Shown: one piece after another, positions 48,526 through 56,515 of the stretch
Position numbering within the stretch: position 1 is the first letter of the stretch
Layout: each line of letters starts with the position of its first letter
Assembly: GCF_019649055.1 (NCBI RefSeq)
Contig: NW_026570378.1
Span: 186,001 to 250,000 of the forward strand
Length of the DNA stretch: 64,000 bases
Source: Paramacrobiotus metropolitanus
Taxonomy: Eukaryota > Tardigrada > Eutardigrada > Parachela > Macrobiotidae
Direction of reading: 5' to 3'
Position numbers and translations under genes: made by a program
Notes under the pieces: generated by a model
What the model was told of the DNA's origin: nothing
Database searches by the model: none
Seen by the model: only the letters and a program-made list of their open reading frames with translations

Positions 48526-48720
48526 TCAACGCACATTAGCGATATTTACGCGAAAACCAGAATCTTCGTTGGTTTCATAAAAAGGAAGCAATACTACGAC
48601 AGTTATAACTGAAGTATAAGTAATTTTTTGCCATTTTTTACGCCGTATTAAATTCGCGAGTATTAATATTGTCTCAGTCAGTAATAATTATTTATTAATA
48701 ACTGTTAAAAATGTTTCAAT

Positions 48721-48905
48721 AATTACACCGGTTTCTTAGGTTCTTAGGTTTCAAAGGTTTCTTAGGTTTTCCAGGTTTCCTTAGGTTTCTTAGATTGCTT
48801 AGATTGCTTAGATTTCTTAGGTTTCTTAGGTTTTTCGGATTTCTTAGGTTTCTTAGGTTTTCAGGTTTCTTAGGTTTCATGGTTTTTTTCTGTTTCATAG
48901 GTTTT
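48721..48905 (+). repeat. Minisatellite of TTTCTTAGG units
   Basis: GGTTTCTTAGGTTTC-like 9-12-bp units are repeated about fifteen times. The minus-strand frame through it reads a Asn-Leu-Arg/Lys-Pro repeat, which is a by-product of the repeat and not a gene. It sits between the two GCTGACCGACAA-type arrays. Confidence 0.75.
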
Positions 48906-49079
48906 TAATGAAATGCACTCGTTTGCGCTCGAGCAGAACAAAGGAGAATTGGACGACTGGAATTGTCAGATTGCTGCATAAGCCGGCTGCTGTTAATAGC
49001 AGGCGAAGTGGTTGTGGTACCCGATCATAATCACGCAAATTGAGTTTTACAGGTACTTAAGGGGTAACAGACTAAATTT

Positions 49080-49350
49080 GTGATCAGCGAGTTGTCGGTA
49101 TTTCCATAAAACGTCGGTCAGTAGAATGTCGGTCAACAATTTTGTAAGTAAGCTAGTTGTCGGGTAAACATTCTGTCAGCCGGCAAAATGTCGTCAGCAA
49201 ATCGTCGGTGTCAGCGAACTGTCGTTCAGCAAAATGTCGTTCAGCGTTTTGTTGTTTCAACAAACTGTCGGGTCAAAATTTTGTCGGTCAGCAAATAGTC
49301 GTAAGCAAGTTGTCAGTTAACAAGATGACCGTCAGCGAGTTGTCGGTGTG
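49080..49350 (-). repeat. Second GCTGACCGACAA-type array, inverted relative to the first
   Basis: On the plus strand this array is made of GTCGGTCAGCAAA / GTCGTTCAGCAAAATGTCG units, the reverse complement of the 48286-48525 repeat. The two arrays face each other across ~550 bp, forming a large imperfect inverted repeat. Confidence 0.65.
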
Positions 49351-49946
49351 CCGTTTCTTTGTGTGCTCCTTGGAGAAAGAAGTACTTTTAATAGTTTATG
49401 AGCAATTTTCTATTTAGAATTTGTCGATGGACGCTTTGGACGGGTACAATAATGGAACTGGCCCTTTTTTTATAAGCTGTGATGCAATACACATTTTTAT
49501 TGTGTTCTTTATTACTTTTACGTCGCGACATAACAGTCATGAGTCAAATCACTATGGCCACTGGCCAGCATTACCCATTATACACATTATAGGCGCTGTA
49601 TACCGTAAATTACAGTGGTTAGTAGTAAGTACTTACTACACTTCCAGTACATACTATAATATAACAAGTTCGACAAACCAAAAAAGCCGAAATAGGTGGT
49701 TAATTAATGCAAATATGTAATTTTGTTATTGTTATTTTTATTAACGACTGTTCGTACCTGCATATATATTCGTCATCAGCAAAAATTTACTGGATACAGG
49801 ACGACAGAACGAAAAGTAAATGCAGAATGCGAATACATAGCATAATTAGCATCTTCCTGTTTTGTTTATTTCTTGTTGCAAATGCCTATCCCACATACTG
49901 TAAGAGCAAACGAGTTCCGGAAATGAACAAAATTCATATAGCAAAG
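49351..49946. other. Intergenic downstream of COQ3
   Basis: No gene is supported. A plus-strand frame ending at 50003 contains a hydrophobic run (IISIFLFCLFLVANAYP), but it overlaps the end of the conserved COQ3 exon and has no other support. Confidence 0.4.
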
Positions 49947-52900
49947 TCAAGCGCGTTTAACAGCAGTGATAGCATACGTCACACCACAGTAAGAAACGTC
50001 TGACCAGCGAGGTCGGCGGGCCCACGGATCCACCGGCGTACATCCGGTGAGGTTAACCTGCACCAAACCGTGTTTGTTCAGTTCATACTCAACCTCACTG
50101 GGCTTAATGAATTTGCGCAGATGATGCGTATCCATCGGCACGATGCGCAACAGGTGTTCGCCGCCAATAATCGCGATGATCAGTGCCGCCAAAGTCCGGT
50201 TGATCGTGGAGAAGATAGCACAGCCTCCAGGCCGCAGTAGTCGGCAGGACTGCGCCGCAAATTCTTTCCAGTTGGCCACATGATCGAGTACTTCTAAGCA
50301 CAACACCATGTCGAATTCCTCCGGGCGCTGCGATGAAATTTCCTCCACCGACGTGCAGAGGTAGTCTGGACCGATTTCCGTCGGATGCCTTTCGTTCCAA
50401 TGCGCTTTGGCTAACTACAGATTTAATTAGGGTTTAGTTTTGTCGTTCGCCGACACAGGCCCCACTAATTTTACATATTACCAAGTAATGTTGGTACACA
50501 ATACGCCAACTTAAACGATTTAAGCCATGAAAAATTCATCGCCAGCACAGTCTAGGGACGCAATTCGAAAATTAATGCACCTCAGGCTCATTAAGTCACA
50601 AATACCGACACCCGGTAATATGGCTGGTATGACTTATGATAAGAAAAGTTTATGTTCTGGCAGGGCCGTTAGACCCTTGTTCACCAAAACGCTACTCCTC
50701 CTACAGTTTCCATCCGATAATTTTTCTGAATACACCATTGAACTCAGCGTAAAATTCTGAACAAGATGATTGAGGCCGATTTTGAAATTCGAATTTCCCT
50801 GGATCGACTACAACGGGCGGTTGCCCTGTGCGACAGACATGTTTTTGGGGCTTTTCCCCCCTGGCCCCCCTAAACATATTTTGACACTAAAAAACACGTT
50901 TTTTAGCTTGTTTTAACTCGTTTTCATGAACTTTAACTAATATTGAGTGATTTAAATTTTTTCATGATTCTACATCGTAAATATCATCATCATTCGCTGG
51001 AAGGAAAGTGTTAAAAGGCCAGTCGTTATCCGATTCTTGCTCCAATCGATCGTTTTCCGGCACATCGTTAAAAGATTTACAATACCGTAATACTGTGCAA
51101 TTTCCAGTCCGTTTTAATGTGATCGTAAACATTTATTTTTGGTAAAATACCCCCTTCCTTCTCCGAGCAGATCGACATGTCGTTAAAAGACCGCGAAAGA
51201 TCATCACGAATAAAGTCGGTAAAACAGAATTTGTCTTCGGTCGACGTTCTTAACTTTTTAAAGTTGTAACGTCTTTCATGTTTTTTTTTATGTCGAGGTG
51301 CGCATACTGAGCTGACGCTTGCTAGAAAAACAAAATATTTCAACACCTTCATTTCTTTACCTAACATTGGCGCTTTGTAAAATATTATTCTACAAAGAGA
51401 AACGGCTACACGAGCTGGTGATCAAGCAAAAAGACGGCACAAAAAACAAGTAGAGCTTCGTTTTGGTAGCCCGGAGCGATTGCATACTTGGTGAAACTGG
51501 TTAGAAAGTTGGCCCTGTTTGGCACAGCAAAAATAAAATCGCTCAAAACCATTTAAATTTGATGAAAAACGAGTAAAAACAAGCTAAAGACGTGTTTTTT
51601 AGTGCCAAAATATGTTTAGGGGGGCCAGGGGGGAAAGCCCCAAAAACATGTCTGTCGCACAGGGCAACCGCCCGTGGTAGTCGATCCAGGGGAAATTCGA
51701 ATTTCAAAAATCGGCCTCAATCATCTTGTTCAGAATTTTACGCTGAGTTCAATGGTGTATTCAGAAAAATTATCGGATGGAAACCGTAGGAGGAGTAGTG
51801 TTTTGAAAATTGGATAGGGGTCTAACGACGGCCCTGTCTGTAAGTATTTTATTTAAATTGCGTCAGACGCGCACGCACGAGAGAGCGACCAATAGGGCGG
51901 CTGCCAATTAGCCGTCATTTCGGCAAGGCAACCATCAACGGTTGGCAATTTGAGAATGTAAGGGGCTAACAGCTTGAGCCAGCTGTTTCAAAAAATCTGA
52001 AAAAGTTACTTATCACCGAACTAAGGAACGAATTTCCACGGGTTCGGGCCCGTGGAAAGGATTTGGAAAGGAAATTGCCATGGATTTCCATGGATTCCGT
52101 GGATTTACGGAAATCCAAATGGATTTCCGTAAATCCAAGGATTTTACAGTTTTCGTTGGAAAACCATTTTTTAGCTTTGTTTCCACATAGATAGCTATCC
52201 AGCGTAGCCCGGCTACCAATTAAACACCATTTCAGTTAATGCCATCCAGTTGTTCGCTGCAGATTCATAGTTTCAACTTTCAAGCATGAAAGTAACCTGT
52301 TTTTTGCAAGACCACAAAACCGGTTGTAGTTGTTGAAACATTGAAGCTAATTAACGACTTATTACTAAATACAAATTTACGTAGCTGACTTGTTAATTTA
52401 CTTTACTAAAATACTAATTATTGAAATAATAAAACAGTTGAAAAGTGAAAAAACCTTACTAAAATAAAACATAAAAGTCTAATGTTAATTTTTAAAAATG
52501 AAAGTGGTTTGTTTATGTCTTAGATCCCATATTAGGATGCAAATTTCCCCCTTATTGTATTCGCACTTTCGTATTTTAACATAAGAATAAGTTAATTACG
52601 ATGAGCAAAACAACACTGTTATAACAAAAAGCTCTCATTCAACTGATCGGCTTCGAGATCTTGTATGTAAGTGATAGATAGAATCATATACAGTAGCATT
52701 AATGTTTTCCAAATTATTATTAGTGCGCTAAATGCCTAATCATTAGTACCGGGTGGGCGACAGTGAGGTATTTGCATTTTTGCACTCATTAAATGCTAGT
52801 GCGCTGGAATTTTTTGTCGTAACAATATAAACAATGCATCACGTTTTGTTTCCATGCCGCCAAAAAAATTGAAAACTGCTGAAACTGACATTGGTTTTGG

Positions 52901-55900
52901 CAAAAATGTGAAAAAAGTGAGAAACTGACGGCTTGGTTTCGATAATTTCGTAAGTTTTCGTACGTTTGGAAATCCAAATACAGAAATTTGGATTTCCATT
53001 CGAAAAGTGGAATTCCACGGATTTCCTAAATTCCGTTTTCCAAATCCAAGCAGGTCGCCTGGATCGCGGATTTGGAAAACGGAATTCCACCGTGGAATTC
53101 CATTTTCCGTGGATCTTCGTTCCTTACACCGAACCAAATGTTTGGAGAGATGGTGGAGTAACTGCTGTAACTCCATGCCACTCAAATTAGTACATATTAA
53201 CAGCATTTGAGCCCTATTTTTATGCTGGTCTTAATCTTATCTCTGGATAGCGCATATCCGCGTGGACACTGGTCAAAGCACCACTTTCCCATCTTTCCCG
53301 AGGTGGCTTCGGGAACTGAGCCCGTTGTGAGCGCTATCTAAAGTTCTAAACCTATTTTGGACTACAAAATTTTTTTCTTGGCATCCTGCTCTTATAAAAA
53401 GTAACAATATTTTTTCCTGGTCCGTCTGCTGTTAGAGAAACTAATAATGAACGATCCGTCGGGTTCATCGGTTCCAGCGGCCACCGAACCACCTGCGCCT
53501 GTCGCAAACATAGCGATAACCGTGAAAAGGTGGGATTTCATACTGAACTGGTATCGGTGTGGCGTGGTCGGTGTGCGTGACGACACCTTCGGCTTAGTAC
53601 GCCACGGCATCATCCGCGATCTGTCCCCCACCGGCGACTTCCTCGTCGACCTTGGCGTGACGGGTCAGGACAAAGTCAGCGTGCCCATTAACCAGTGTCT
53701 GGAATGGCGGGGCCCCCGCGCCCCCCCGTGATCCGGACCCCGTCCTGACCCTCTACTGCACCGCCCCTGATTACACAACGTTTTGTCGGGGGGTGCTCCG
53801 TTCGCTGAAGCATGTCCCCGGGCAGCCGTGGTGCTGGTACCCCTCAACCTTCCTGGCGGGGGAGGACGGCAGTGTCCAGTACAAGTATGCTTGTGTGGCC
53901 CTCCACCTCCCGGACGGGGAGACGCTGCGCACGGTGGTGCGACCGGAGCGCCTGCACTACGTCCCCCCGGCGGGGGAGGGGGACGGGTGGGTGGCTTTCT
54001 CGCCCGAGCGGTTGCGCTACTGGCGACACGCCGTGCCTGTCATGGATAAGCATGTGATGGCCGCCACCCAACAGATCCTTCTGATCCAGGCCGGGGCGGC
54101 GTTCCGCACGGCCTGGCATACCGCCACCAGTACCATCAGCGTCGGGTTGCGTCCAGGACGGACTGGGTGGCTGAACCTCGTCTACCTGTCCCACCAGGAG
54201 ACACCGATGCCCGATACTGAAGTGGTGAGTATGGAAATGAAATCACCGTTCACTGAGGCTGCGCCTGTTTTCGAACTTCGGCCGTTATTAACATGCAGGG
54301 CCGTCGTTAGACCCCTATCCAATTTTCAAAACACTACTCCTCCTACGGTTTCCATCCGATAATTTTTCTGAATACACCATTGAACTCAGCGTAAAATTCT
54401 GAACAAGATGATTGAGGCCGATTTTTGAAATTCGAATTTCCCCTGGATCGACTACCACGGGCGGTTGCCCTGTGCGACAGACATGTTTTTGGGGCTTTCC
54501 CCCCTGGCCCCCTAAACATATTTTGGCACTAAAAAACACGTCTTTAGCTTGTTTTTACTCGTTTTTCATCAAATTTAAATGGTTTTGAGCGATTTTATTT
54601 TTTTGCTGTGCCAAACAGGGCCAACTTTCTAACCAGTTTCACCAAGTATGCAATCGCTCCGGGCTACCAAAACGAAGCTCTACTTGTTTTTTGTGCCGTC
54701 TTTTTTGCTTGATCACCAGCTCGTGTAGCCGTTTCTCTTTGTAGAATAATATTTTACAAAGCGCCAATGTTAGGTAAAGAAATGAAGGTGTTGAAATATT
54801 TTGTTTTTTCTAGCAAGCGTCAGCTCAGTATGCGCACCTCGACGCAAAAAAAAACATGAAAGACGTTACAACTTTAAAAAGTTAAGAACGTCGACCGAAG
54901 ACAAATTCTGTTTTACCGACTTTATTCGTGATGATCTTTCGCGGTCTTTTAACGACATGTCGATCTGCTCGGAGAAGGAAGGGGTATTTGCCCAAAATAA
55001 ATGTTTACGATCACATTAAAACGGACTGGAAATTGCACAGTATTACGGTATTGTAAATCTTTTAACGATGTGCCGGAAAACGATCGATTGGAGCAAGAAT
55101 CGGATAACGACTGGCCTTTTAACACTTTCCTTCCAGCGAATGATGATGATATTTACGATGTAGAATCATGAAAAAATTTAAATCACTCAATATTAGTTAA
55201 AGTTCATGAAAAACGAGTTAAAACAAGCTAAAAACGTGTTTTTTAGTGTCAAAATATGTTTAGGGGGCCAGGGGAAAGCCCCAAAAACATGTCTGTCACA
55301 GGCAACCGCCTGTAGTCGATCCAGGGGAAATTCGAATTTCAAAAATCGGCCTCAATCATCTTGTTCAGAATTTTACGCTGAGTTCAATGGTGTATTCAGA
55401 AAAATTATCGGATGGAAACTGTAGGAGGAGTAGCGTTTTGAAAATTGGATAGGGGTCTAACGACGGCCCTGTGTTCTGGTAACCGGAAGGAGAAAACGGC
55501 AAAGAAAAGTTGCTGGACCAGACTCACTTTTAAATTAAACTGTTAAGCATACGAGTATAGGAATAATTTAGCTAGTTACCCTGCCATGTTGCTTAAATTA
55601 CTTATCAGAAAACACCCAATCTGCAAATTTCAAAAAAAATTAATTTGGAATTTTAAAAACTAAAAACTGAATTAAGTTCACACTAACGTGACTAACCACA
55701 AGTAAAGCTTAAAAACTTCAAAATCAATCCATTTAAATTCTATTTAAAATGATTTTTTTTAAACTGTAGAAAATTAATATAATTTTTAATAATATAATAA
55801 ATTTTTATTACTATTTTTTTATTTTAAAAGTGCTGATAATATTTTTAACAATGTTATCGCAAATGTTAAAATGTACTGTATAAATCGTTTTAACGTCTGC

Positions 55901-56515
55901 ACCTCAATGACGGCCGGAACCATATCGACTCCGGTAATATCCGCGCCGTACTCCCGCAGCGGCTCGGAAACGAATCCAGCGCCGCATCCCACATCGATGA
56001 TCTTCGCGCCACGCAGGGGATTGGTATCCGGCAACGGCTTCTGGGCAATATACTTGCTGTAGGCATCCAGAATCATCGGGATCCGGCAATGGTTAAATCC
56101 ATGCAGCAAAGCAAAGTCGCCTTCCGGGTCCCACCACTGCTGGGATAATTTCGTCCAGTGCGACAATTCGCGCTTGTCAATGGTGATGTCCCCGCTTGAC
56201 GCATCCAGCATTCCTTCGTGCTCATGCTCTCCAGCTTCGTTAGCGGGAGGAAAAGCATGCCTGTAGATTTCCACAAAAATTCGCCATGGGATCATCAGCC
56301 ATCCCAGGATAAATTCTAGTAGAGTGCCTTGCATAGCCTGTAAGCAAAACTACGATTTTGAAGAAAGCTTAGAATACACTCAAAAAATTTGCAGAAACAG
56401 TGGTGCTAATTAGCCTGCGTCCTGCGGTAAGCCGATGATTGTACAATAGATGCTAGACTTGCATGTGCAATGTGCAACAGCACCCTGCCTCATAAAAACC
56501 ACAACAACTTACCAT
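49947..56515 (-). CDS. COQ3: Ubiquinone biosynthesis O-methyltransferase
   Basis: Three exons: 56513-56515 (only the ATG, followed by GTAAGT), 55903-56337 and 49947-50414, all in phase 0, encoding 301 residues. The SAM-binding motif I, IIDVGCGAGFVSEPL, is at about 114-128, with the acidic post-I residue in ITGVD. Later motifs are FDMVLCLEVLDHV and LRPGGCAIFSTINRT, and the family-typical IVPMDTHHLRKFIKP and the Trp-rich tail follow. COQ3 carries out the two O-methylations of the ubiquinone ring at the mitochondrial inner membrane. The N-terminus (MAMQGTLLEFILGWLMIPWR) is hydrophobic rather than a classical basic presequence. Intron 2 is 5,488 bp, of which 4,819 bp are the composite transposon and its target duplication. 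It lies head-to-head with HEATR1. Confidence 0.9.
50661..51836 (-). mobile_element. Non-autonomous hAT-like element, left arm of the composite
   Basis: 1,176 bp with inverted repeats of roughly 200-300 bp (left arm lacks three bases of CAGGGCCGTCGTTAGACCCC). There is no transposase. The minus strand holds one small open frame (51077-51367) also present in the other copy. This is a fold-back-like derivative that would depend on a hAT transposase from elsewhere. Confidence 0.75.
51077..51367 (-). CDS. Small ORF of the hAT-like element, signal-peptide-like start
   Basis: 96 residues. From the second Met, the sequence MKVLKYFVFLASVSSVCA looks like a secretion signal, followed by a basic stretch (PRHKKKHERR) and a Phe/Asp-rich part (FCFTDFIRDDLSRSFNDM). 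The same frame is found at 54786-55018 in the second copy, where an indel in a G run changes its end. I recognise no family. It may be a remnant of a captured exon and not a real gene. Confidence 0.35.
   Translation of the reverse strand: MLGKEMKVLKYFVFLASVSSVCAPRHKKKHERRYNFKKLRTSTEDKFCFTDFIRDDLSRSFNDMSICSEKEGGILPKINVYDHIKTDWKLHSITVL
52022..53126. mobile_element. Second hAT-like non-autonomous element nested in the composite
   Basis: 1,105 bp with 11-bp terminal inverted repeats TAAGGAACGAA (52022-52032) and its complement (53116-53126). They are flanked by a perfect 8-bp duplication CACCGAAC at 52014-52021 and 53127-53134. The subterminal parts on both sides are packed with GGATTTCC/GGAAATCC and TCCACGG words in both orientations. 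The middle is AT-rich and non-coding. The target duplication length points to hAT; the ends differ from the outer elements, so it belongs to another family. Confidence 0.8.
53447..54230 (+). pseudogene. GC-rich gene exon carried by the composite, frameshifted and 3'-truncated
   Basis: The frame starts MNDPSGSSVPAATEPPAP and reads VKRWDFILNWYRCGVVGVRD, FGLVRHGIIRDLSPTGDFLV and VPINQCLEW. It stops at TGA 53729-53731, just after a run of seven C (53721-53727). Skipping one base continues in the next frame with LYCTAPDYTTFCRGVL, LKHVPGQPWCWYPS, KYACVALHLPDGE and AATQQILLIQAGAAF. A donor-like GTGAGT lies near 54225; the frame otherwise runs into the hAT inverted repeat at 54296. No downstream exon is present. 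GC content is far above the surroundings. The C run makes a sequencing error plausible. I do not recognise the family; the GVVGVRD...FGLV part could be a Tudor/Agenet-like barrel, but that is only an impression. Confidence 0.55.
54296..55471 (+). mobile_element. Non-autonomous hAT-like element, right arm of the composite
   Basis: 1,176 bp and nearly identical, in reverse orientation, to 50661-51836. It starts CAGGGCCGTCGTTAGACCCC and ends with the complement. It carries the same small open frame (about 54786-55018) with an indel near its end, followed by conserved but out-of-frame coding-like DNA to ~55170 (NDVPENDRLEQESDNDW in translation). Confidence 0.75.

Follow-up and report, generated by a model that had tools for sequence, protein, structure and literature searches.

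The 64,000-nucleotide window analysed here (contig C158:186001-250000, in the 169.8 Mb, 533-contig genome assembly of the tardigrade Paramacrobiotus metropolitanus) contains the gene COQ3 on its minus strand, and one COQ3 intron holds two inverted, nearly identical hAT-like transposons with a broken gene 5' end and a further transposon between them. The identity of the host gene is clear, as the spliced 299-residue protein matches the UbiG model TIGR01983 with an E-value of 8.1e-63 and 211.8 bits (cut-off 102.95). The GT..AG intron, whose splice sites were read by eye, runs from 55902 to 50415 (5,488 bp), of which 669 bp remain when the inserted unit and one copy of its flanking duplication are subtracted. 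A reading made from the letters of the window (the sequence-only reading) had proposed that the block is a composite transposon that entered the COQ3 intron as one unit of ~4.8 kb; this proposal is supported by the pattern of the flanks and by cargo homology that ends at the border of the right-hand element. The features of the unit, which spans 4,811 bp between its flanking duplications, are as follows.

50415..55902, minus strand: COQ3 intron that holds the unit (splice sites by eye; spliced protein compared with UbiG)
50653..50660, plus strand: left target-site duplication TGTTCTGG, an 8/8 direct match to 55472-55479
50661..51836, plus strand: left hAT-like element (copy A), 1,176 bp, with terminal inverted repeats (TIRs) of ~310 bp and a 5'-type end outward, typed from column 38 inward (alignment, end typing)
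50664..50684, plus strand: densely altered tract in A's outer end, where gaps can be placed in more than one way (alignment against copy B and its relative on C119)
51837..52021, plus strand: captured donor DNA, upstream part, beginning with the 8 bp TCTGTAAG and ending in a copy of the duplication that flanks the nested element; identity to C217:49140-49263 is 81% over 51847-51965
52022..53126, plus strand: nested 1,105-bp transposon with ends TAAGGAACGAA and its own 8-bp duplication (by BLAST 90% to C57 and 88% to C91)
53127..54295, plus strand: captured donor DNA, comprising the remaining 5' region, a broken exon 1 (from 53447), a splice-donor-like GTGAGT and the start of intron 1, with TTAACATG as its last 8 bp; 53164-54292 is 82% identical to C217:47958-49044
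54296..55471, minus strand: right hAT-like element (copy B), 1,176 bp, inverted relative to A, 5'-type end outward (alignment, end typing)
55472..55479, plus strand: right target-site duplication TGTTCTGG, an 8/8 direct match to 50653-50660

Copies A and B are inverted relative to each other and lie 2.46 kb apart. Their alignment has 28 gap columns, and over its 1,162 aligned bases they share 98.71% identity; the other copy nearest to A is C119:318273-319448 (98%). The limits first assigned to the two ~1.18-kb copies proved correct to the base, and the inner ends of both are intact termini. Two related elements bound foreign DNA, as in a composite or macrotransposon. Each element has TIRs of ~310 bp, and its 5' and 3' ends, compared over the first 320 bases, are 87.8% identical in A and 93.3% identical in B. 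The ends read CAGGGCCGTCGTTAG or CAGGCCCGTCGTTAG and occur without mismatch at 30 places in the genome. We call the elements hAT-like because their family makes 8-bp target-site duplications, as described below, and because the terminal motif starts with CAGGG or CAGGC, which we take to be hAT-like. The one open reading frame checked in copy A (96 residues) gave no Pfam match at E ≤ 0.1.

Analysis of the flanks revealed a direct 8/8 match between the outermost ends and none elsewhere. The inner flanks, TCTGTAAG beside copy A and TTAACATG beside copy B, are unrelated: the own flanks of A score 3/8, as do those of B, and apart from the outer pair no pairing of the four flanks exceeds 3/8 in direct or 4/8 in inverted orientation. 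Seventeen further family loci were taken from genome matches, and both ends were found in 11 (the 6 one-end loci were left out). Ten of these 11 single copies have a perfect 8-bp duplication, although C65, one of the ten, lies within a TA repeat and is hardly informative. Since single relatives carry perfect duplications while here the outer pair alone matches, the pattern is that of a composite. When left and right flanks were paired non-cognately, the outer A/B pair was the sole 8/8 match in 156 pairings, the next best being three at 6/8. Within the window, TGTTCTGG occurs twice on the plus strand, both times as a flank of the unit, and zero times on the minus strand; random 8-mer pairs from the window match 8/8 at a rate of 3.75e-5 (75/2,000,000), and at a spacing of 4,819 bp 2 of 59,173 window positions do so, counting the unit's own site. 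The duplication at the outermost ends only, which the sequence-only reading had described, is thus confirmed, and its argument that inversion or independent insertions would not give the observed pattern is supported. One family member (C163:140592; L045:1793) has a right end followed by TGTCCTGGTAAC, which is 11/12 like the right flank of the composite. BLAST of the flanks found no real further homology, and this candidate for a related locus was set aside as coincidence or target preference.

The DNA between the elements has its nearest paralogue on contig C217, and the two matching blocks share order and orientation. The homology stops 3 bp short of copy B and 10 bp short of copy A, while the C217 gene continues into its own intron and apparently into two further coding blocks, an exon structure that is our own reading. 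The third of these blocks looks F-box-like, a label that likewise comes from our reading and not from a search. With the nested element left out, identity to C217 is 78.4% in the 5' non-coding part (435 columns), 88.4% in exon 1 (766 columns) and 91.0% in the start of the intron (67 columns). The cargo exon is broken into two parts in different frames with an internal stop; over 254 codons its nonsynonymous divergence from C217 (dN) is 0.097 and its synonymous divergence (dS) 0.168, a ratio of 0.58. The captured gene is apparently lineage-specific. Its exon 1 family has 56 matches in this genome, exon 1 gave no Pfam match at E ≤ 0.1, and none of 486 candidates from a search of 5.8 billion proteins reached E ≤ 0.001, within the word limits of that search. 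Many relatives of the captured exon lie on one contig (C77:540641-654903), as in an expanded gene family, and the gene adjoining the C217 paralogue contains a bZIP stretch closest to JunD.

Sequence divergence gives some indication of the order of events. The split between the cargo and C217 is probably much older than that between A and B, because dS between the former pair is 0.168 and A and B differ by ~1.3%; the cargo would probably already have been a separate paralogue when the elements arrived, although this order would be less secure if A and B had undergone gene conversion. The nested transposon is flanked by CACCGAAC at 52014-52021 and 53127-53134 and has a private divergence of ~2.4%, against one private substitution in A outside the end tract, which suggests that it was present before the unit moved; this figure includes change in the source lineage, however, so that dating cannot settle co-travel. 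The idea that the unit carried both a gene exon and a second transposon therefore holds in that both are real and lie inside it, but co-travel of the nested transposon, as opposed to a later landing, is suggested at most. Its TAAGGAACGAA-ended family has several related copies in the genome, and the C57 copy also has an 8-bp flanking repeat.

The ends of the two elements were typed at 28 alignment columns that set the 5' ends of B and C119 apart from the 3' ends of all three copies (A, B and C119). At 28/28 of these the outer end of A is 5'-type, A having had no part in defining the 5' state, whereas the outer end of B is 5'-type by construction, as B was used in that definition. Both outer ends are 5'-type from column 38 inward, and the inner ends are 3'-type. 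Within the outer 230 columns only columns 38 and 52 discriminate, and among the compared copies only the A/B/C119 subfamily shows differences at them. The outer end of A has 12 changed columns in its first 31 relative to B and C119, whereas private changes in the rest of A amount to 1 substitution and 6 single-base indels; its outer 37 columns are 25/37 identical to other subfamily ends, against 90-92/93 in the next stretch. Searched as a family of its own, this variant left end had no second occurrence in the genome even with 3 mismatches allowed. The altered tract contains CTTGTTCA, which is also present inside the element in both orientations, and a template-switch mutation is possible. The tract may have changed after the move, may be a competent end as it is, or may mark the switch point of the repair process considered below.

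The anatomy of the unit, the flank pattern, the 8-bp duplications of the family, the end types and the cargo homology are, in our judgment, probably the outcome of composite (macro) transposition, in which the long and nearly identical ends of two inverted hAT-like elements took part. We propose that two non-autonomous members of a single young subfamily landed, facing opposite ways, on the two sides of a copy of the 5' end of a lineage-specific gene, a copy that would have been broken already at the donor. A hAT-type transposase from elsewhere would then have paired the two outermost ends, and not the two ends of one element; in a single event everything between them would have been cut out and the 4,811-bp unit inserted into the COQ3 intron, with duplication of TGTTCTGG. 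The long, near-identical inverted ends would allow two ends of the same type to be paired. For a family of about 15 copies (a rough count), 0.0017 pairs within 1.4 kb are expected genome-wide; the proximity of A and B is unlikely at random and fits short-range hopping, which is a habit of hATs. More specifically, this could be an animal hAT macrotransposon mobilized through two same-type ends, enabled by long symmetrical inverted repeats in a Tn5/Tn10-like arrangement; this part of the proposal is tentative, and we lean slightly away from it. For asymmetric hATs such as Ac, mobilization through like ends would be unexpected.

The alternative that deserves most attention, although we consider it unlikely, is that COQ3 held a resident B-oriented element flanked by TGTTCTGG and that, when this element broke close to its left end, the repair took an A-cargo-B locus elsewhere as template and copied A and the cargo in. 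A single resident element has one end of each type, and repair would therefore have to switch template somewhere in the outermost 37 columns at one end; one such switch, in the outermost 37 bp on the left, would be enough, and the altered tract of A with CTTGTTCA sits exactly there, which is why we give this route more than negligible weight. It would be a variant of the gap filling that Tan et al. 2021 (PMC8277862) propose for Pack-TIRs, but the breakpoints in that study lean inside elements, whereas here the switch would lie at the extreme end. The inner junctions are complete termini of two elements, which does not fit Pack-TIR filler inside a single element, although a switch in the outermost 37 bp of A may still have taken place. 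Moreover, a genome search allowing up to 3 mismatches gave no other end that matches the altered tract, and repair would still need an A-cargo-B source that, being copied and not cut, should persist and was not found. As to an empty COQ3 allele, repair and transposition lead to opposite predictions.

The remaining alternatives have far less to recommend them. Maize-type composite insertion, in which reversed-ends transposition during replication leaves re-replicated flanks instead of excising a block, likewise yields element ends around host DNA and an outer 8-bp duplication (PMC4270019), but it leaves two re-replicated segments joined inside the insertion, whereas the cargo, apart from its nested element, is collinear with one C217 stretch; we regard this route as very improbable. 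That two insertions occurred independently, or that the copies were inverted relative to each other, and that the outer 8 bp match by chance, is harder still to credit: flank matches do decay or get lost, as in one of the 11 single copies, but an 8/8 match has a chance of ~4e-5, two copies that are 98.71% identical would both have to lose their own duplications, and the inverted flank pairings expected of inversion reach at most 4/8. As slight is the probability of an assembly artefact. Inverted repeats this similar and 2.46 kb apart are an assembler hazard, and we worked from the assembly only, yet a false join is not expected to leave matching 8-bp duplications inside an intron that is bordered on either side by COQ3 exons.

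Composite transposition nevertheless has several observations to contend with. The whole pattern is known from one site, and the single copy on C110 has flanks that match at only 2/8. The outermost end of A is so heavily altered that it may not be competent now, and the altered tract coincides with the switch position required for repair. No transposase is tied to the A/B ends: the genome has 53 matches to the hAT dimerization domain (PF05699), none of which was checked against these ends. The genome yielded no second copy of the unit (2,459-bp cargo query, 40/52 candidates scored), no closer exon 1 (C217 exon 1 protein query, 133/133) and no orphan downstream exons (C217 downstream region minus its repeat, 2/2), so that the search with internal sequence that had been suggested found neither a donor locus nor further copies with the same ends in this assembly. 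Nor was an empty COQ3 allele found when both flanks were searched against the assembly. The donor may have been lost, may be unassembled or may have held only a partial gene. The C217 downstream query matched only C217 itself and its neighbour at 72%; this neighbour was rejected as a donor remnant, having retained its own exon 1. Besides the A/B pair, no other composite was evident among 32 element ends at ≤2 mismatches. A looser search, in which about the first 100 of 379 places were listed and a reversed-pattern control gave 530, yielded distant matches that were not used.

As genome queries, both COQ3 flanks match only themselves and C4:940608-941681 (2/2 candidates scored each). This region (C4:940400-942000; L078) contains a second COQ3 copy, which looks like a DNA-level duplicate and not a retrocopy because an intron is retained at a similar place. 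The copy is pseudogene-like with many indels; its intron of roughly 240 bp has neither elements nor cargo, lacks TGTTCTGG and cannot be aligned around it. To judge from this comparison, an intron without the insert agrees with later insertion into the COQ3 of the window but falls short of empty-site proof.

Bacterial Tn5 and Tn10 consist of two inverted insertion sequences with like ends outward and one outer duplication. The unit in COQ3 shares this arrangement, but the transposases differ, and here neither flanking element has a recognizable one. In maize, Huang and Dooner (2008) reportedly described Ac/Ds macrotransposons. In that plant, composite transposition is an established behaviour of hAT elements (PMC9910405, PMC4270019), and, as proposed here, hAT ends of two linked elements move the intervening DNA as a unit with an 8-bp duplication; the macrotransposon described in maize ends in Ac 5' and 3' sequences, however, whereas the tardigrade unit has two same-type ends on inverted elements with ~310-bp inverted repeats, in an animal. 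The Ising TE of Drosophila (cited in PMC6431247) is likewise an animal case in which long-inverted-repeat foldback elements bound DNA that moves with them, but it extends over hundreds of kilobases and FB4 is placed nearer Mutator-like elements (PMC8277862), in contrast to the 4.8 kb, hAT-like ends and 8-bp duplication of the COQ3 unit. Paired P elements moving en bloc have also been proposed for a mosquito miniature inverted-repeat transposable element (PMC1562414). The claim that compound transposons are known from bacteria and rarely shown in animals is thus borne out in that the pattern here is clean, but animal composites are not unknown, as the foldback-bounded Drosophila element illustrates (PMC6431247). 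Maize Ac and the foldback elements of Drosophila already provide examples of this kind of event, and the like-ends arrangement is the most interesting feature of the unit. In a literature search read by title and abstract start, the matches listed did not include any animal composite built from two inverted hATs; most subscription literature lay outside this search, and absence does not follow.

The unit offers a base-precise and apparently young case in which paired hAT-like elements would have moved a gene 5' end en bloc in an animal. It contrasts with a large survey of animal Pack-TIRs, TIR transposons with captured host DNA of which hAT is the commonest superfamily (208/370): most single-copy gene capture is ascribed there to gap filling during repair, not to transposition, and the filler lies inside one element, whereas here the cargo lies between two complete elements (PMC8277862). 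If the process is general, foldback-type hATs would provide a route for shuffling promoters and first exons in this lineage.

Two further features lie near the unit. An open reading frame adjoining COQ3 matches HEAT repeat-containing protein 1 with an E-value of 4.4e-40, whereas the best Utp10 entry scores 1.3e-20; we take the former entry to be human and the Utp10 entries to be fungal. Together with the JunD-like bZIP stretch beside the C217 paralogue, this comparison fits an animal genome. Positions 48600-49360 contain a repeat with many genome copies at 75-94% identity, some of which have short tandem structure.

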